Shown here: positions 3,609 to 11,234 of the stretch, in pieces
How the letters are laid out: each line of letters starts with the position of its first letter
Numbering within the stretch: the stretch's first letter is position 1
From: Silvimonas sp. JCM 19000
GTDB lineage: Bacteria > Pseudomonadota > Gammaproteobacteria > Burkholderiales > Chitinibacteraceae
Length of the DNA: 12,807 bases
Direction of reading: 5' to 3'
Assembly: GCA_001313065.1 (NCBI GenBank)
Contig: BBFD01000102.1
Span: forward strand, 1-12,807
Translations under genes and position numbers: made by a program
Notes under the pieces: generated by a model
Database searches by the model: none
What the model was told of the DNA's origin: nothing
The model's input: only the letters and a program-made list of their open reading frames with translations

Positions 3609-5197
3609 TCAGTCACGCAGCGCCGCCCAGGTCAGGTCAAATCGGGCCAGATATTTGCGCAGACGATCAGCATCGTTGGCTTGTTTTTTTGTCTTCACGC
3701 GATACGGCAAACAGCATGCGGCCGGCCTCCGACAAACTGCTGGCCTGGCGGCAAACACGCAGCACGGTGTCGAGTTGAGCGCGATCAAACAGGTCCAGCC
3801 GAGCCGCGCGTTCGCCCAGCACACGGTCCAGTTCCGATTGCGTCTGCATGCCATCCCAGCCCCGCTGCAGGCGGGCTATTTCCTGGTTTACATTGCTTGT
3901 ATCAATGCGCCCGGCATGGGCCAGTGTCGCCATGCGCGTAATGGACGCGCTCAGCTCGCGGAAATTGCCGGACCAGCGCGCCTGCGCCGAGGTGGCAAAT
4001 TCCAGATAATGCCGCCGTGCCTCAACGTTAAAGCGGATTTGTTCGCCCTGATCCTGGGCGAAGCGAGCTAATTCAAAATCAAGATTGGGCTCGATATCTT
4101 CAGTGCGTCCGGCCAGGCCCGGCAAGTCATAAGTCCATAAATTGATGCGCGCATACAGGTCTTCGCGGAACTTGCCTTCCGCCACCCAGCGGCGCAAATC
4201 GCGGTGCGTGCCCGCGATCAATTGAAAATCGCTTGCGACTTCGCGGTCCCCACCAAACGGAAAGAAGCGCTTTTCTTCGATGGCCTTGAGCAGCATCGCT
4301 TGCTCATCCAGGCCCAGTTCGCCGATCTCATCCAGAAACAACAAACCGCCGTCGGCCGCCCGCAGCAGGCCGGGGCGTTCGCTTTGTGCGCCGGTAAACG
4401 CGCCCCTGACGTGGCCAAACAAAGCCGACATTGCACTATCGCCGCGCAAGGTGGCGCAATTGACTTCCACAAAGCGGCCGCTGATCTGATGGCGTGATTT
4501 CTTCAGTTCATACACTTTGCGTGCCAGAAACGATTTGCCCGCACCGGTTGGCCCCACCATCAGGATCGGCGCTTTGGAGCGCCCGGCAACATGCTCAATC
4601 TGTTCGATCACCCGATTGAAATGCGCGTTGCGCGTGGCAATGCCGGACTTTAAAAAACGACACCGTCTCAGCTGCGTCGCGCTGGAAACGCTGCGCGATT
4701 TTGTTATAGCGCGACAAATCCAGATCGATGATGGCGTAGCTACCGACTGCATGACCGGTGTCGGTTTTGCGCGGTGGCGAAGTCTGGATCAAACGGCCCG
4801 GCAGATAACGCGCTTCCGCCAACAGAAACCAGCAAATCTGTGCCACGTGCGTGCCGGTGGTGATGTGGATCAGGTAATCCTCGTTCTCGGTATCGAAGGG
4901 GTAATCGTGCGCAAAATCGTGCAGTGCGCCGTACACCTCCTCAAAATCCCACGGATTACGCAGATTGATTTCTACGCGCCGGGTTTCGGTTTCGGGCGAG
5001 ACACTGCGCAGATCATTGCAGGTGCGCTCCGCCAGGCCGCGGCTGCGCTCGTCATGCAGCAGTTCCAGCCGGTGCACGATCAGATCTTCTTGCTGGCCCA
5101 GGCTGATGGTGGGCCGCCATTTCTCCCAGCGCTGACTGCCACGCCCGGCGTGGTCGAGCACGGTGCCAATAAAGCCAATCACGACGGTCTTACGCAT
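3609..5197 (-). CDS. rtcR: RtcR, sigma-54-dependent activator of the RNA repair operon (two frameshifts)
   Basis: About 530 residues from ATG 5197 to TGA 3611-3609, the usual RtcR length. The N-terminal 180 residues (MRKTVVIGFIGTVLDHAG, ENEDYLIHITTGTHVAQI) form the CARF-type sensor domain. Then comes the AAA+ domain with Walker A GPTGAGKS, the sigma-54-contacting loop GAFTGA, and Walker B GGLLFLDEIGEL. The C-terminal helix-turn-helix is ASSLSEAGRMLFAVSR, followed by NDADRLRKYLARFDLTW. In Salmonella, RtcR is activated by tRNA fragments with cyclic-phosphate ends; the same is assumed here. Frameshifts: one extra base in the A6 run near 4652-4657 (VSFLKSGIATRN is the natural reading) and one in the T7 run at 3684-3690 (near the C-terminus). 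It is divergent from rsr, whose sigma-54 promoter it should activate. A perfect 6-bp hairpin (3602-3607/3616-3621) surrounds its stop codon. Confidence 0.95.
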
Positions 5198-5350: not shown

Positions 5351-5366
5351 TGGCACGCCGATTGCA
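5351..5366 (+). promoter_or_regulatory. Sigma-54 (RpoN) promoter of the rsr-Y RNA-rtcB-rtcA operon
   Basis: TGGCACGCCGATTGCA matches the -24/-12 consensus TGGCAC-N5-TTGCA exactly, with the GG at 5352-5353 and the GC at 5364-5365 at the required spacing. Transcription should start about 12 bases after the GC, near 5376, leaving a 5' leader of about 30 bases before the rsr ATG. It sits between divergent rtcR and rsr, where RtcR-dependent promoters of RNA repair operons are found. Confidence 0.93.
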
Positions 5367-5405
5367 AAGTAGCTGGCATCAAACGAAAACGCTGTGAGTG
5401 CTGAA

Positions 5406-6976
5406 ATGGCCAACCCGCAATTGTTCAACTCGCTGACCGCCAGACTGCCGCAGACCAATACGCTTAATCAGACCGCCGCCGCAGCCTATGCCTATTCGCC
5501 CGAACACCAGTTGGCGCAGCTGGTCATGACCGGTTGCCTGAATCAAACCTTCTATGCGCACGCCGAATTGCAACTGGCCGACGTGCTGGCGCTGTGTGCA
5601 GAACTGGATGCGCGCTTTATCGCTCAGGCGGCGGTGTATGGGCGACAGCGTGGCTATATGAAAGACATGCCGGCGCTGCTGCTGGCGGTGCTGTCGCGCA
5701 AAGATGCGGTGCTGTTTGCGCAAGTGTTCGATCAGGTCATCGATAACGGCAAAATGTTGCGCAACTTTGTGCAGATCATGCGCAGCGGGGCCAGCGGGCG
5801 TAAGTCGCTGGGCTCACGTCCCAAGAAGGCAGTGCAGGCGTGGCTGAACCGTGCCACCGAAGCGCAGTTGTTGAGCGCAAGCGTCGGCAGTGCACCTTCG
5901 CTGGCCGACGTGATCAAGATGGTCCACCCCAAGCCGCAAGAAGCATGGCGTGAGGCGTTTTTTTTGCCTGGGTCTTGGGCCAACCGTGTCATCGCGCAGC
6001 GCTGCCGCCGCTGACCCAACAGTTGCTGGCCTTCCGCGCCGATACCGCGCTGGAATTGCCGAATGTGCCGTTCCAGTTATTGACCAGCGCGGCGCTGAGC
6101 AGCATGCAATGGGCGCAACTGGCCGAGCGTATGGGCTGGCACGCATTGCGCATGAATCTGAACACGCTGGCCCGGCACGGCGTCTTTGCGCAACCCGGCA
6201 TGGTCGACGCGCTAGCGGCGCGCCTGGCGGACGCGGAACGTGTTGCGGCAGCGCGGGTTTATCCGTATCAGTTGCTGGCGGCATGGCGTATGGCCGGGGA
6301 TGAGATTCCGCTGCAAATCAAAAATGCGCTGCAGGATGCGCTGGAAATCGCTTTGCGCAATGTGCCCGCGCTGCAAGGCAATGTGGTGGTGTGCCCGGAC
6401 GTTTCGGGATCGATGTCGAGTCCGGTCACCGGTGGGCGGCGCGGCGCCACGACGGCGGTACGTTGCATTGATGTTGCGGCCTTGATGGCAGCGGCGGTAC
6501 TGCGCCAGTGCCCACAAGCGCGCGTATTACCGTTTGCAACGGATGTGGTGCCGGTGCAGTTGAATTCCCGCGATAGCGTGCTGAGCAATGCCGAAAAACT
6601 GGCTGCAATCGGCGGCGGCGGAACGCGTTGTTCGGCCCCGTTGGTGCAGTTGGTCAAGGAAAAGGCCATGGTCGATACCGTGATCCTGGTGTCGGATAAC
6701 GAATCGTGGATCGATGCGCGCCGTTATGGCGCCACCGAGACCATGCAACAGTGGCAGCAGATCAAACACCGCAATCCGCAAGCTCGCTTGATCTGCATCG
6801 ATATGCAACCGTACGGCACCACGCAAGCGCAAGACAGCCCGGACATCCTGAATGTGGGCGGCTTTGGCGACGCGGTGTTTGATGTGGTGGCGCAGTTTGC
6901 GGCGGGCAGTTTTGGCGCCGGGCATTGGGTCCAAGCCATCAAGCGGACCCGCCTGGCCGGGGACGCCGCAGCTTGA
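5406..6976 (+). CDS. rsr: Rsr, bacterial Ro60-like TROVE/vWA RNA-binding ring protein (one frameshift)
   Basis: About 523 residues. I choose the ATG at 5406 (MANPQLFNSL) over a GTG at 5394 because family members start at this point. The TROVE domain covers roughly residues 1-330, with GGxAY-like AAAAYAYSPEHQLAQ, TGCLNQTFYA, RGYMKDMPALLLAVLS, DNGKMLRNFVQIMRSG and GRKSLGSRPKK. The C-terminal von Willebrand A-like domain has a MIDAS start, CPDVSGSMSSP, and a later SDNES. Ro-family proteins are ring-shaped, bind misfolded or damaged RNA in the central hole and Y RNA on the outside, and in bacteria cooperate with exonucleases such as PNPase. The frame breaks in the T8 run at 5958-5965; the natural reading is WREAFFAWVLGQP. 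It is first in the sigma-54 operon and is followed 7 bases later by the first Y RNA. Confidence 0.95.
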
Positions 6977-6983
6977 GCAATCC

Positions 6984-7079
6984 GGCACGAATGGGAGACG
7001 GGTCTACCTCTGCGAACCTTGCTGGAAGGTGATCCAGCCCGCACTGCGGTGCGCGCAGACTCGCTTGTTTTGTCGTGCC
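6984..7079 (+). ncRNA. Y RNA 1 of 3: Ro-binding stem with a multi-hairpin (non-tRNA) head
   Basis: A perfect 7-bp end stem (GGCACGA 6984-6990 / TCGTGCC 7073-7079) leads into the asymmetric internal loop shared with the two following RNAs (5' ATG after GA, 3' TTTTG before TC). Inside, CTGCG 7010-7014 pairs with CGCAG 7054-7058. This encloses GCTGGA-AGGTGA-TCCAGC (7021-7038) and GCAC-TGCG-GTGC (7041-7052), a three-way-junction head with no T- or D-arm. It ends near a short T run (7084-7087). It begins 7 bases after the rsr stop, so it is probably processed from or transcribed with the rsr mRNA. Its position and lack of a tRNA-like module recall the second, YrlB-type RNA of the Salmonella operon. 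I infer Rsr binding from the shared stem. Confidence 0.7.
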
Positions 7080-7089
7080 ACTCTTTTAT

Positions 7090-7119
7090 CCGCGCTGCTT
7101 GCGGCGCGGCCAGGTTTTT
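7090..7119 (+). terminator. Hairpin with T5 between Y RNA 1 and Y RNA 2
   Basis: CCGCGC (7090-7095) pairs with GCGCGG (7104-7109) around an 8-base loop. Five bases later a T5 run (7115-7119) abuts the 5' stem strand of the second Y RNA. It looks like a weak or leaky intrinsic terminator that could set the ratio of the first RNA to downstream RNA. The gap between stem and T run is longer than in strong terminators. Confidence 0.45.
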
Positions 7120-7245
7120 CGGCGAATGCGAACGGAACTACATCCTCTGAAGATCGAGATACGGGTTCAAATCCCGTCGGCTCCAACACTGTGGGGCCGT
7201 AGTTCAACGGTAGAACACGCCAACGTTTCGTTTATTTTGTCGCCG
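7120..7245 (+). ncRNA. yrlA: Y RNA 2 of 3: YrlA-like, circularly permuted tRNA mimic
   Basis: The end stem is CGGCGA 7120-7125 / TCGCCG 7240-7245. After the shared internal loop, CGAACG (7129-7134) pairs with CGTTTCG (7224-7230) with one bulge. The head contains, in permuted order: a T-arm (ACGGG-TTCAAAT-CCCGT, 7161-7177); the 3' acceptor strand CGGCTCC (7178-7184); an 8-base loop; the 5' acceptor strand GGGGCCG (7193-7199), which pairs over all 7 positions with one G-U; the usual TA (7200-7201); and a complete D-arm (GTTC-AACGGTA-GAAC, 7202-7216). So the acceptor stem is capped by a loop, and the Y stem takes the place of the anticodon arm, the established YrlA architecture. A T8 run follows (7250-7257). 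In Salmonella such RNAs bind Rsr; the same role is expected here. Confidence 0.88.
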
Positions 7246-7257
7246 ATCCTTTTTTTT
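7246..7257 (+). terminator. T8 run after Y RNA 2
   Basis: The GC-rich closing strand TCGCCG is followed by ATCC and eight T. Together with the Y RNA end stem this resembles an intrinsic terminator defining the 3' end. Run lengths here may be inflated by a base or two, judging from homopolymer errors elsewhere. Confidence 0.5.
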
Positions 7258-7266
7258 GTTGAGTTT

Positions 7267-7410
7267 TGCGGTGAATGCAGTTGGAACTACATCGGATAGA
7301 GCGCCCGCGGCAACGCGGGAGGGGCGGGTTCAAATCCTGCTGAGTGCATCGGCTTATCGATGCGCAAGATAGCTCAGTGCTTTTCTGTTTCAACATTTTT
7401 TGTCATCGCA
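7267..7410 (+). ncRNA. Y RNA 3 of 3: tRNA mimic apparently permuted within the D loop
   Basis: An 8-bp end stem (TGCGGTGA 7267-7274 / TCATCGCA 7403-7410, one G-U) is followed by the shared asymmetric loop and an inner 8-bp stem (GTTGGAAC 7280-7287 / GTTTCAAC 7387-7394). The head then reads GGATA and GAGC (7299-7302), the 3' half of a D-arm; one base; CCCGCG-GCAA-CGCGGG (7304-7319), a GNRA-capped hairpin at the anticodon-arm position; a 4-base variable region; a T-arm GCGGG-TTCAAAT-CCTGC (7324-7340); a loop-capped acceptor-like stem GTGCATCG/CGATGCGC (7344-7351/7358-7365); and TAGCTCAG, whose GCTC (7372-7375) is the 5' half of the D-arm. The Y stem therefore leaves through the D loop, unlike Y RNA 2. 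The acceptor base has mismatches (TGA/AAGA). T5 follows at 7414-7418. Confidence 0.78.
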
Positions 7411-7418
7411 CCCTTTTT
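7411..7418 (+). terminator. T run after Y RNA 3
   Basis: CCC and five T directly follow the closing strand of the third Y RNA, the same stem-spacer-T pattern as after Y RNA 2. rtcB starts 96 bases further on in the same direction with no obvious promoter, so some readthrough is presumably needed. Confidence 0.4.
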
Positions 7419-7513: not shown

Positions 7514-8736
7514 ATGAGCACCAACGATTATCAAGTGCTGCAAGTCAGCGGCGGTAAGCCATCAAGCTGTGGACCAATGGCGTACCGGTGGAAGACGCTG
7601 CGCAAAAGCAGTTGTTCCAGACCTCAAAAAAATGCCGTTCATTTTTTGACCATATCGCGGTAATGCCGGACGTCCACCTGGGTAAGGGTTCGACCATCGG
7701 CAGCGTGATTCCCACCCAGGGCGCGATCATTCCGGCGGCAGTGGGCGTGGATATCGGCTGCGGCATGATGGCTGCCTGTACCACGCTGACGGCCAAAGAC
7801 CTGCCCGACAACCTGGCGGGATTGCGTAGCGCCATCGAAAAAAAAGCGGTGCCGCACGGACGTACGCCGGGTGCGCGTGATAAAGGCGCGTGGTCCACGC
7901 CGCCCGAAACCGTCGATAGTATGTGGGCCGATTTGTTGCCCGGTTTCAAGCGCATTACCGATAAATATCCGCGCCTGAAGAACACCAACAACTACAAGCA
8001 TCTGGGTACTGGGTACGGGTAACCACTTTATCGAAGTCTGCCTGGATGAGCGGACCGCGTGTGGTTCATGTTGCATAGCGGATCGCGCGGGGTAGGTAAC
8101 GCCATCGGCAACTTGTTTATCGAACTGGCGCAGGCCGATATGCGCCAGCACATCGCCAATCTGCCGGATAAGGATCTGGCGTATTTCGAAGAAGGCAGCG
8201 AGCACTTTGATGATTACGTCGAGGCCGTGGGTTGGGCGCAGGACTACGCGCGGCGTAACCGCGCCGTGATGATGCAGAACGTAATCGACGCGGCGCGCAG
8301 CGTGATCACCAAACCGTTTAACGCCAGCATGGAAGCGGTGAACTGCCACCACAACTATGTGCAGAAAGAAAAGCACTTCGGCGCCGAGATTCTGGTCACG
8401 CGCAAAGGCGCGGTGTCGGCACAGAAGGGGCAGTTGGGCATCATTCCCGGTTCGATGGGCGCCAAAAGTTTTATCGTGCGCGGGCTGGGTAACGAAGAGG
8501 CGTTCTGCTCGTGCAGCCACGGCGCAGGTCGCACCATGAGCCGTAACGAAGCCCGACGGCGCTTTACCGTGGACGACCAGATCAAAGCCACCGAACACGT
8601 TGAATGCCGCAAGGATAGCGATGTGATTGATGAAATTCCGATGGCGTACAAGGATATCGACGCGGTGATGCAAGCACAGAACAGCCTGGTGGAAGTGGTG
8701 CATACCTTGCGGCAGGTGGTATGTGTAAAAGGATGA
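7514..8736 (+). CDS. rtcB: RtcB, GTP-dependent RNA ligase (several indels)
   Basis: Starts at ATG 7514 (MSTNDYQVLQVSGGKP) after AGAGA and ends TGA 8734-8736, giving about 408 residues, the normal length. Landmarks include AVMPDVHLGKGSTIGSVIPT, AAVGVDIGCGMM (metal-binding Asp/Cys), MLHSGSRGVGNAIG, NCHHNYVQKE and CSCSHGAGRTMSR with the guanylylated His. The ending HTLRQVVCVKG is typical. It joins RNA 2',3'-cyclic phosphate or 3'-phosphate ends to 5'-OH, resealing cut tRNAs. Indels: one base missing near 7558; two extra A (7626-7632) and one extra T (7643-7648), which together restore the frame but garble MPFIFDH; an over-long A8 run near 7848-7855; two bases missing near 8008 (LGTLGTGNHF); and one missing near 8052. 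It lies in the RtcR-controlled operon and carries no PrfH signature, so it is the canonical paralogue. Confidence 0.95.
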
Positions 8737-8743
8737 GTTGAGC

Positions 8744-10174
8744 ATGGACGAGCAAAACCGGGTGACATGGGTCACTACGCTGTGCCCCGCCGGCGTCGAC
8801 ATGGCGGCGCATTGGTATCAGCTGTTTGGCGTGGGCGCCAATGCCGTGCGTTACCTGCATGCGTTGCTGGCCGGGCAAGACGTACCCGCCGCGTTCTGGA
8901 TTGAGGTCAGTGCCTGCGGCAACGGCTATTTACGCCAGGAAGCCGTGCAGCAACTGGCGCAGGTGCATAGTCCTGCCGCGTGCTCCGCAATCTTGTTGCG
9001 CTTGAATGACTGGGTGCCCCAGGTGCGCCATGCGGCGGCAGATGTGGTCAACGCCATGCTGACGGCTTGCGATATCGAATGGGTTATAGGCGGCTTGCCT
9101 GCATTGCTGCGCTTGCTGTCGATGCGACGGCATAGTCATGCCGCCCTCAAGCAGCGCTTCGATCAGATGTTATGCAAGGAGATCTGGCGCGACACGGTGT
9201 TGCAGTGCCTGCGTGGGCTCACGGGGGCGTCGGCGCGCTATCTGACGGCCTTGCTGCTGGAGCGCTTGCCGCCGGATGAGCGCATCGACGTTATCTCCCG
9301 GGCCTTGCGCCACCCCGACCCGTCGGTGCAAAGCATGGCGATACAGGCGGCGGCCAGCTTTTCCGCGCCGGTTCAGTTGCACTTGCTCAATGTTGCCAAA
9401 GCACTGCCCGCAGCCGGGCCACGCTGCATGATGATGCGGCGTTTGCTCGCGTTGTTGGACGGTCCTGCACGTGATGCATTGCTGGAGAGCATGCTGCTCG
9501 ACCGCTTTGGTGGCGTGCGCGCCATCGCATTGTGGCATTTACAGCAAGCGGGCCAGACCCCTGCGGCGCTGTATGCGCGCATCGATCCGACGCAGTTGCA
9601 TGGGCACGCGCTGGCTGCGTGGCTTATCGAAGCGGGCCGTGCCGGCTTGCCTGTCGCGGCTGATTTTCTGCGGCAACTCAGCAGCCATCCGCTGCCCGGC
9701 ATAAGACTGGCGGCGTGGGCCATACGCTTGAGTCAGCCCAGCGAGTCGCGTTTTGCTATCGCGCGGCAAGCATTGCTTGATCCTGCGCGCAAAGTACGGC
9801 GAGCAATGGCGCGCCAGATCGAGGCGGAAGCCGGGTTTGATTGCGCACAGATTTCCGCGCTGGCCGAGGTCTGCCTGGCGGCGCGGGATGTCCCTGCGGC
9901 ATGGTGGCTGGGCAAGACGTTGTCGCCGTGGTTCAGGTTGCTATTGCTGCTGGAAGCGTTGGCGGCTAATGCGGACACTGCGCTGCATGCTGACGTGCTC
10001 ACAGCACTGCGGCAATGGGAAAGACCGTCAGGCTGGCATGTGTATATCGTGCCCGGTACCACAGAAAGCGAGCGGGTACGCCGCTTGCTGGATAATCAAA
10101 CCGTGAGCGCTGCGCTGGGCACCATGCCGTTGCTGAATGCGGCGATTCGCGCGCGCGTGGCGCTAAAACAATAA
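8744..10174 (+). CDS. HEAT-repeat-like protein between rtcB and rtcA
   Basis: An intact 476-residue frame from ATG 8744 (MDEQNRVTW). AAAGGA lies about 10 bases upstream, overlapping the rtcB stop, so it is tightly co-transcribed. A TTG at 8738 is less likely. The sequence is almost all alpha-helical with repeating pairs of the form D-P-x-V-R-x-x-A: for example [16 protein letters not shown] (about 89-104), [17 protein letters not shown] (about 187-203), [12 protein letters not shown] (about 254-265), [13 protein letters not shown] and [18 protein letters not shown]. These are HEAT-type repeats, usually a scaffold for protein or RNA binding. There is no catalytic motif, signal peptide or membrane segment. 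Conservation of the frame amid indel-ridden neighbours argues that it is a real gene. Position suggests an adaptor for RtcB, RtcA or the Rsr-Y RNA particle; this is inference. Confidence 0.85.
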
Positions 10175-10203: not shown

Positions 10204-11234
10204 ATGACAACAACAAAAAAACTGAATATCTGGAGCTGGATGGCTCCATGGGCGAGGGCGGGGGGCAGATTTTGCGTACCGCGCTCACTTTATCGATGAT
10301 TACCGCTGTGCCCATCCGCATCAGCCAGATCCGGGCCGGGCGACAGAAGCCTGGTTTGCTGCGCCAGCATCTCACCGCAGTGCAGGCGGCCGCGGCGATT
10401 TGTGGGGCAACGGTGGAAGGGGCGACGCCCGGTTCGCAAGCGCTGACGTTTGCGCCTGGCCCGATACGCGGCGGCGATTATCGCTTTGCCATCGGTAGCG
10501 CGGGCAGTTGCACGCTGGTGCTGCAGACGGTGCTGCCGGCCTTGTGGTTTGCCGATGCGCCTGCACGCATTTGCGTGAGTGGCGGCACGCATAATCCTAA
10601 AGCGCCACCCGCAGATTTTCTGATTGATGCATGGCTGCCGCTACTGCAGCGCATGGGCGTGCAGACGCAGATCGAGTTGGTGCGGCATGGGTTTTATCCG
10701 GCCGGTGGCGGTGAGGTGGTGGCGCATACGCAGCCGGTGCCTGCTTTGCAGCCGCTCGACTTGTCGACGCGTGGCGCGCACGTCGCCCTTAATGCCGTGG
10801 CCATGGTGGCTGGCGTGCCGGTGAGTGTTGCGCTGCGCGAGGTGGACTGCCTGCGTGCACGTTTGCCCGCGGTGACGGCCGTACACCAGGAATTGTCCGA
10901 TCGGATGGGGCCAGGCAATGCGGTGCTGGTGCGCGTCCAGCACGAAAACGTCACCGAACTGTTCATCGGCCTGGGCGAAAAAAGGCATCGCCGCTGAACG
11001 CGTGGCCGACCGCGTGGCGCAAGACGCCTGAGCTATCTGCGCCGCGATGCCGCAGTGGGCGAATATCTGGCCGACCAGCTGTTATTGCCGCTGGCGCTGG
11101 CGGGCGCTGGCACGGTAAGCACCACGCATGCATCCAGCCATCTGATCACCAACGCACAAGTGATTGAGAAATTTCTGGATGTCAGCATTGAGATCGAAGC
11201 CGACGGGGCCGCTTATCGCATTACGGTGCGTTGA
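10204..11234 (+). CDS. rtcA: RtcA, RNA 3'-terminal phosphate cyclase (three frameshifts)
   Basis: Starts at ATG 10204 (MTTTKKL(E)[23 protein letters not shown]) and ends TGA 11232-11234, giving about 343 residues; E. coli RtcA has 338. Family motifs: [67 protein letters not shown] and, near the end, [12 protein letters not shown] with the nucleophilic His that takes AMP. The enzyme uses ATP to convert RNA 3'-phosphate to 2',3'-cyclic phosphate, a form RtcB can use. Frameshifts: one base missing near 10224, one extra A in the run at 10978-10983 ([15 protein letters not shown] is the natural reading), and one base missing near 11028 ([27 protein letters not shown]). It lies 29 bases after the HEAT gene, last in the operon, and converges with the HhH gene. 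Confidence 0.94.

Follow-up and report, generated by a model that had tools for sequence, protein, structure and literature searches.

The window, that is, the whole 12,807-nucleotide stretch of Silvimonas sp. JCM 19000 DNA analysed here, carries an RNA-repair operon in the order rtcR-rsr-Y RNA-rtcB-rtcA, with the rtcR-like gene on the minus strand (Pfam). The features of the locus are:

3667..4752, minus strand: rtcR-like sigma54 activator gene (Pfam Sigma54_activat)
5351..5366, plus strand: sigma54-type -24/-12 site TGGCACGCCGATTGCA, located 28 bases upstream of the start codon of rsr (exact pattern match)
5394..6976, plus strand: rsr, the Ro60 orthologue, interrupted by a frameshift near 6000 (3' piece with Pfam TROVE and vWA_Ro60)
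7119..7249, plus strand: adjacent Y RNA of the YrlA type, permuted at the anticodon, D arm intact (RF02553 53.2 bits, below the cut-off of 69; R2 28.6 bits; fold)
7268..7410, plus strand: D-loop-permuted Y RNA, predicted core of the whole transcript (R3 match and RNAfold minimum-energy fold)
7514..8736, plus strand: rtcB, split by frameshifts, start codon placed by eye (Pfam RtcB on 7588-8022 and 8059-8736)
10248..10997, plus strand: rtcA (Pfam RTC)

The gene at 3667..4752 would be rtcR, judging from its position and the operon. When one mismatch is allowed, the -24/-12 pattern has three matches in the window, compared with 1.74 expected by chance. The 5' piece of rsr gives no Pfam match. A gene for a HEAT-repeat protein lies between rtcB and rtcA (8738-10174, plus strand; Pfam), and an RF-1 domain protein is encoded at 582-1208 on the minus strand (Pfam). 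To the eye, the minus-strand frames beside the latter resemble fragments of an RtcB-type protein; Pfam finds no match in one of these fragments, 1602-2336.

The RNA at 7268-7410 has the features expected of a bacterial Y RNA: an adjoining rsr gene and a long stem that joins both ends. Between rsr and the YrlA-type RNA there is a third Y RNA-like element (6984-7079), which has a GGCACGA...TCGTGCC outer stem and, in the fold, a two-hairpin head; its counterpart in Amantichitinum (L010) is present at 5589-5684.

Architecture of the D-loop-opened Y RNA

The Y RNA at 7268-7410 consists of these parts:

7268..7274, plus strand: Y stem helix 1, 5' strand, partner 7403-7409 (RNAfold, alignment A8)
7280..7287, plus strand: Y stem helix 2, 5' strand, partner 7387-7394 (RNAfold, alignment A8)
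7294..7302, plus strand: 3' part of the D loop, with G18G19 (7294-7295) and the D-stem 3' half GAGC (7299-7302) (sequence, fold, parse)
7304..7319, plus strand: anticodon-position hairpin CCCGCG-GCAA-CGCGGG, 6 bp, with a GCAA tetraloop replacing the 7-nt anticodon loop (sequence, fold, A8)
7320..7323, plus strand: short variable region AGGG, with G48 at 7323 (motif parse, orthologue alignment)
7324..7340, plus strand: T arm GCGGG-TTCAAAT-CCTGC, 5 bp, loop TTCAAAT (sequence, fold, A8)
7344..7365, plus strand: acceptor-like hairpin of 8 bp with a closing loop and no free CCA end (sequence, fold)
7370..7377, plus strand: U8A9 (7370-7371), D-stem 5' half GCTC (7372-7375) and A14G15 (7376-7377) (sequence, A8, parse)
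7387..7409, plus strand: Y stem 3' strands 7387-7394 and 7403-7409 (RNAfold, A8)

Within the head, G18G19 and the D 3' half are followed by the anticodon-position hairpin, the variable region, the T arm, the closed acceptor hairpin, U8A9, the D 5' half and A14G15; the D, T, acceptor and anticodon-position helices are therefore in circular tRNA order. By sequence and fold, the Y stem exits the head at the opened D loop. A sequence-only reading had placed the D halves at opposite ends of the head, with the Y stem leaving from the opened D loop. Every element that it named is found at its coordinates in the window sequence, and the same topology is the unaided minimum-energy fold given by RNAfold for 7268-7410 alone (-57.7 kcal/mol, z -3.9; none of 200 shuffles folds as well). 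As that reading had also said, the neighbouring Y RNA has an intact D arm, which follows its T arm and acceptor (sequence and fold). The weak point that it conceded, a mismatched acceptor base, is real: the patch between the T arm and the acceptor helix is irregular, with TGA (7341-7343) opposite AAGA (7366-7369). In addition, G48 (7323) is ill-suited to G15, so that the window lacks the Levitt pair 15-48. The head of 7268-7410 is almost certainly a circularly permuted tRNA fold opened in the D loop.

The tRNA mimicry of YrlA is known from structure 6CU1 (PMC8394870, PMC11472068), and modification of YrlA by DusA and TruB is described in PMC8394870. In both YrlA and the window RNA, a Y stem joins the 5' and 3' ends, the RNA is encoded with rsr/rtcBA, and the head is a circularly permuted tRNA-like structure with a T arm, an acceptor stem and a D arm. 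YrlA, however, is opened in the anticodon arm and has an intact D arm, while the window RNA has its D arm split around the Y stem and retains a hairpin at the anticodon position; one class of D-permuted RNAs also has a long variable arm, unlike YrlA. The Rfam YrlA model (RF02553, cut-off 69) gives the neighbouring Y RNA (7119-7249) 53.2 bits and the D-permuted one (7268-7412) 24.8 bits. On 12 D-permuted RNAs of the tested loci, it scores ten at 25.4-36.1 bits and leaves L107 and L114 unlisted at E up to 1. Membership of the window RNA in RF02553 was rejected: the score lies below the cut-off, and D halves at opposite ends are not in the YrlA order.

YrlB, the second Y RNA of rsr-yrlBA-rtcBA operons (PMC7790460), resembles the window RNA in its setting; its model (RF02565, 78 positions) finds nothing in the window up to an E-value of 5. 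Permuted tmRNA (RF04321) is also a bacterial RNA with a permuted tRNA domain, and its model finds a weak match, below cut-off, in the neighbouring Y RNA only (7161-7201). A search of open-licence literature, a set that the main Y RNA papers lie outside, found no Y RNA with its opening in the D loop. To our knowledge, the only natural tRNA permutation known in Y RNAs is that of YrlA, whose opening at the anticodon is seen in a crystal structure.

Other kinds of head are seen in related operons. In L001 (5636-5728) and L003 (from 5665), the Y RNA head seems to consist of just a T arm and a sealed acceptor hairpin, with no D arm (a fold was computed for L001 only). Such heads look like minihelix mimics and may represent a third head type in rsr operons. 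The head of another Y RNA, L007 5607-5722, has an anticodon-like hairpin, a T arm and an acceptor hairpin, with no clear D stem.

Rotated tRNA models and covariation

Two covariance models, R1 and R2, were built from 17 real tRNAs from rsr loci, circularised before opening. R1 is opened before G18 in the D loop and R2 in the anticodon loop. ARAGORN had returned 28 distinct tRNA records from the rsr loci, some of them doubtful (23 with a CCA end, 19 passing the filter), and 17 of the 19 were aligned, a Glu and a Gln tRNA, both with unusual D loops, being omitted. The sequence-only reading had proposed scoring the sequence, rotated at the D loop, with a tRNA model; within the window and with filters off, the D-permuted Y RNA gives 24.6 bits with R1 (E 1.9e-5) versus 8.2 bits with R2 (E 0.87). 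For the neighbouring Y RNA (7119-7249) the gap is small, R1 giving 26.6 and R2 28.6 bits. R1 scores YrlA heads well because the order T-acceptor-D5' is common to both topologies; R1 alone does not part them, but the difference between R1 and R2 does. When 81 sources were searched, the R1/R2 scores of D-permuted relatives were 47.7/22.3 bits (L043), 46.8/19.2 (L070), 45.4/13.7 (L056), 43.3/16.5 (L042), 42.1/25.6 (L053) and 28.2/14.0 (L010), and four others (L045, L061, L069, L020) gave R1 scores of 29.8-43.4 with no R2 match at the head at E up to 1. YrlA heads reverse the gap, for example 48.5/63.2 in L046. A Leu-like class with a long variable arm is beyond the reach of R1, with a single weak match (L073, 14.4 bits).

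For the covariation analysis, 54 distinct D-permuted Y RNAs were collected. Alignment A8 contains 52 of them, the other two being L010 and L071. In A8, 96.5% of cells are paired, compared with 71.6% in shuffled and 35-51% in slid alignments, with both-sided changes in 29 of 34 pairs; the fitting of A8 followed the model's structure, and the cell counts are inflated by related sequences and uncorrected for phylogeny. Y stem helix 1 has 96.2% of cells paired and both-sided changes in 5/7 pairs, and helix 2 has 98.1% and 7/8. All counted pairs change on both sides in the T stem (5/5), the acceptor (4/4) and the anticodon-position hairpin (6/6), whose CCCGCG/CGCGGG pairs had been singled out beforehand, with the D halves, as those that should covary. 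In the D stem, two of the four pairs show both-sided changes (AU31/CG20 and GC49/AU3), so that the D halves do covary. A third pair is near-constant (CG51/UG1); the fourth does not form in 18 rows, which the 13-22 mismatch of the Leu-like class would lead one to expect. That class has at most three D-stem pairs.

A motif-anchored parse, which required GG, A14 and a D5' motif that bars C at 15, covers 51 of the 54 sequences; the three Labrys-type RNAs (L067, L068, L146) fall outside it, being without a standard T loop, and keep GAAC/GTTC D halves. The D-stem types in the parse are GAGC/GCTC (28), Leu-like ACGC/GCGG (17), GCGC/GCGC (3) and three single variants. The D3' register was taken as the best of four, and with equal freedom given to the cross-pairing control, all four D pairs form within the same sequence in 33/51 cases versus 91 of 1460 comparisons across differing D5' types. 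The Levitt pair 15-48 is complementary in 49/51 heads (G-C 43, A-U 4, U-A 2), the misfits being L140 and the window; none of 100,000 permutations reaches 49 (mean 38.4), relatedness being uncorrected. U8 stands directly before A9 or G9 and the D5' half in 42/51. Energy minimization is less consistent, since only 36/51 sequences show at least three D-stem pairs in the minimum-energy fold, and L010 is among the 15 failures. An intact D arm 3' of the acceptor, which the sequence-only reading had named as a finding against its proposal, was not seen in any of the D-permuted relatives inspected by sequence.

These results bear on whether the window RNA could be a decayed anticodon-permuted YrlA in which GAGC and GCTC pair by chance. 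The Rfam YrlA model does touch the RNA, at 24.8 bits, and four-base complements are common. Against such decay stand the mere 8.2 bits given by anticodon opening, the 54 distinct relatives with compensating D-stem changes, and the gap between pairing within and across sequences. Decay is largely ruled out by the anticodon-opened score and the D-stem covariation, and is very improbable.

D-loop openings are also found among permuted tRNA genes. Type I genes of algae and one archaeon have the junction 20/21 in the D loop, according to PMC3978253, and share with the window RNA a 3' half before the 5' half, an acceptor join and a D-loop break. As that source has it, they mature by splicing and circularisation, whereas the window RNA keeps a long stem and has an acceptor and an anticodon loop unlike those of a working tRNA. 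The window RNA might then be such a gene, circularised by RtcB into a working tRNA; the gene order is the same, and rtcB, an RNA ligase gene, adjoins. ARAGORN calls no tRNA in the window in native order. Among the 51 parsed heads, it calls a tRNA in 29 when they are un-permuted, compared with one (L114) in native order. That un-permuting makes the heads tRNA-like therefore holds for these 29, while the window's own un-permuted head is uncalled, in keeping with its irregular acceptor. Four of the 29 calls are assigned an amino acid (L104 Ala, L108 Thr, L110 Ser, L114 Leu), but the other 25 are tRNA-??? with unreadable anticodon loops, and the window has GCAA at the anticodon position. The acceptors of the parsed relatives are sealed, most commonly by GCAA (19/51) and in 4/51 by GAAA, with a paired run of 4 bp in 24/51. 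Furthermore, the long Y stem is conserved and covarying, and the relatives occur with rsr or rtcB. With a tetraloop and a sealed acceptor in the window, and sealed acceptors in the relatives, the RNA does not belong with permuted tRNA genes, and there is scant chance that it is one.

The Amantichitinum orthologue and the distribution of D-permuted heads

The 3' piece of the window's rsr has its closest Rsr in Amantichitinum ursilacus, at 89% identity, and the two group together in the Rsr tree with a support of 100/100. The Amantichitinum locus (L010) contains an orthologue of the window RNA (131/143 aligned columns identical) between rsr and rtcB, which are long single frames of 539 and 406 aa. 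It has C48 where the window has G48, and its minimum-energy fold does not show the D stem. By eye, the frameshifts in window rsr (5394-6976) and rtcB (7514-8736) lie at short single-base runs, which suggests indel errors of assembly. Because the window is frameshifted where Amantichitinum is intact, base-level oddities in the window need careful reading. The same errors could, in principle, have joined pieces of two Y RNAs. However, the same RNA between intact genes in L010 and the same topology in many other assemblies refute this for the topology, and such a join is very improbable; the refutation does not extend to single bases like G48.

A total of 81 rsr loci was examined, consisting of the best 80 among the matches listed plus the window. 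A D-permuted Y RNA is present in 23 of these, 22 recognized by pattern or models and one (L071) by sequence reading. All 23 also have an anticodon-opened head, seen as an R2 match of 28 bits or more at another place in the locus. In 21/23, there is no R3 match (E 0.01 or better) 3' of the D-permuted RNA; the exceptions are two Labrys loci. R3, a model trained on eight class I D-permuted sequences with the window and L010 left out, scores the window Y RNA at 52.9 bits (E 1.6e-10 in 751,524 bases), although R3 scores of the two types overlap: the best anticodon-permuted heads reach 49.4 (rsr loci) and 51.5 bits (L147, survey), versus 48.2 and 43.7 for the D-permuted L010 and L071. The named carriers are Chitinibacteraceae, Oxalobacteraceae, Comamonadaceae, Sphaerotilaceae and Xanthobacteraceae (Labrys); their positions in the Rsr tree are scattered.

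Surveys of genome samples, which overlap and whose search filters lose weak matches, found D-permuted heads in 6/399 genomes from the order to which L043's genome belongs (16 with a match at E 0.001; L090-L092 are anticodon-permuted by reading, and L093-L099 were left out), 22/399 from its family (25 with a match at E 1e-7; L123-L125 are the anticodon-permuted matches), 3/43 of the Amantichitinum family (5 matched, two left out of the count) and 15/297 of the Labrys order (19 matched; 12 assigned by score and L148, L150 and L152 by reading). Matches left unclassified in these counts are L093-L099, L130, L131 and L153. In the 399-genome family sample, 20 of the 37 Rsr-bearing genomes, scored with protein query P0001, carry a D-permuted head, and two further carriers without an Rsr match (L111, L116) have RtcB in the same stretch. 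Across 34 further survey loci, two of them overlapping, Rsr is matched in 29 and Rsr or RtcB in all 34, counted within the stretch taken for each locus. In viral contigs, none of 80 scripted checks, from 89 stretches with a short signature, passes as a D-permuted Y RNA. An automatic classing of 337 Y RNA units by minimum-energy fold mixed the classes; it was set aside and excluded from the counts.

Possible role of the paired Y RNAs

The explanation that best accommodates the whole, a Y RNA of an RNA-repair operon with a D-loop-opened tRNA fold as its head, is highly probable. The RNA would be transcribed together with rsr from the sigma54/RtcR promoter, and Rsr would bind it through the Y stem, its presumed handle, which is attached where the head is opened between A14G15 and G18. 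With its acceptor end sealed by a loop, the head could present an unchargeable tRNA body to proteins that bind tRNA; the window head, having a tetraloop in place of an anticodon loop, would be unable to decode. Because the handle exits at the elbow, it would cover part of the outer elbow and leave both the anticodon limb and the acceptor limb free; in the YrlA neighbour the elbow would be free and the anticodon limb lost. The two heads might then complement each other as baits or adaptors for enzymes that act on tRNA, whether in modification, in repair or as competing nucleases. Such a two-sided role, akin to the decoys in two orientations that the sequence-only reading had suggested, follows from the geometry and is offered tentatively.

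A simpler account accepts the topology and gives the head the same function as that of YrlA: the two would be equivalent elbow mimics or stem caps, and D-loop opening a neutral outcome of head shuffling. Two tRNA classes share one slot in Variovorax (class I in L045, L053, L056, L069 and L070, class II in L055), and a Y RNA remnant (L052) and an apparent hybrid (L062) exist. Among the best 80 listed rsr loci, moreover, none of the 30 Pseudomonas loci has an R3 match of at least 50 bits, and thus many rsr operons do without a D-permuted head. Neutrality sits less easily with the side-by-side presence of both types in 23/23 loci, the lack of an R3 match 3' of the D-permuted RNA in 21 of them, and the pairing constraint on the anticodon-position stem and the Levitt pair. 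Its chance is appreciable, if short of even.

The loci also hold traces of how heads may change. The apparent hybrid (L062, 5735) consists of a YrlA 5' half and a Leu-like D-permuted 3' half, and the remnant (L052, after 5937) is a truncated D-permuted Y RNA; both hint at recombination or deletion involving adjacent Y RNAs. Upstream of rsr there are tRNA arrays in L072 (10-1563, 13 Rfam tRNA matches) and L042 (about 327-1549, tandem R1/R2 matches), and the D-loop-opened model matches tandem tRNA junctions, a possible source of D-loop-opened heads.

On a bolder reading, Ro/Rsr operons might encode a matched set of Y RNAs that share a single tRNA fold but differ in where it is opened, which would let one particle show opposite tRNA faces to different modification or repair enzymes; D-opened heads would perhaps derive from captured tandem tRNA gene junctions and be exchangeable modules on a constant Y stem. 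This picture is a possibility rather than an expectation. As judged from sequence, the D-loop-opened topology is a second tRNA permutation in Y RNAs, conserved by compensating changes in several bacterial groups. It adds a class of Y RNA that the current Rfam YrlA model scores below cut-off wherever tried. The presence of this second permutation, with a covarying tertiary pair, beside the first in 23/23 loci suggests that selection keeps the tRNA body and elbow, whatever the attachment point.
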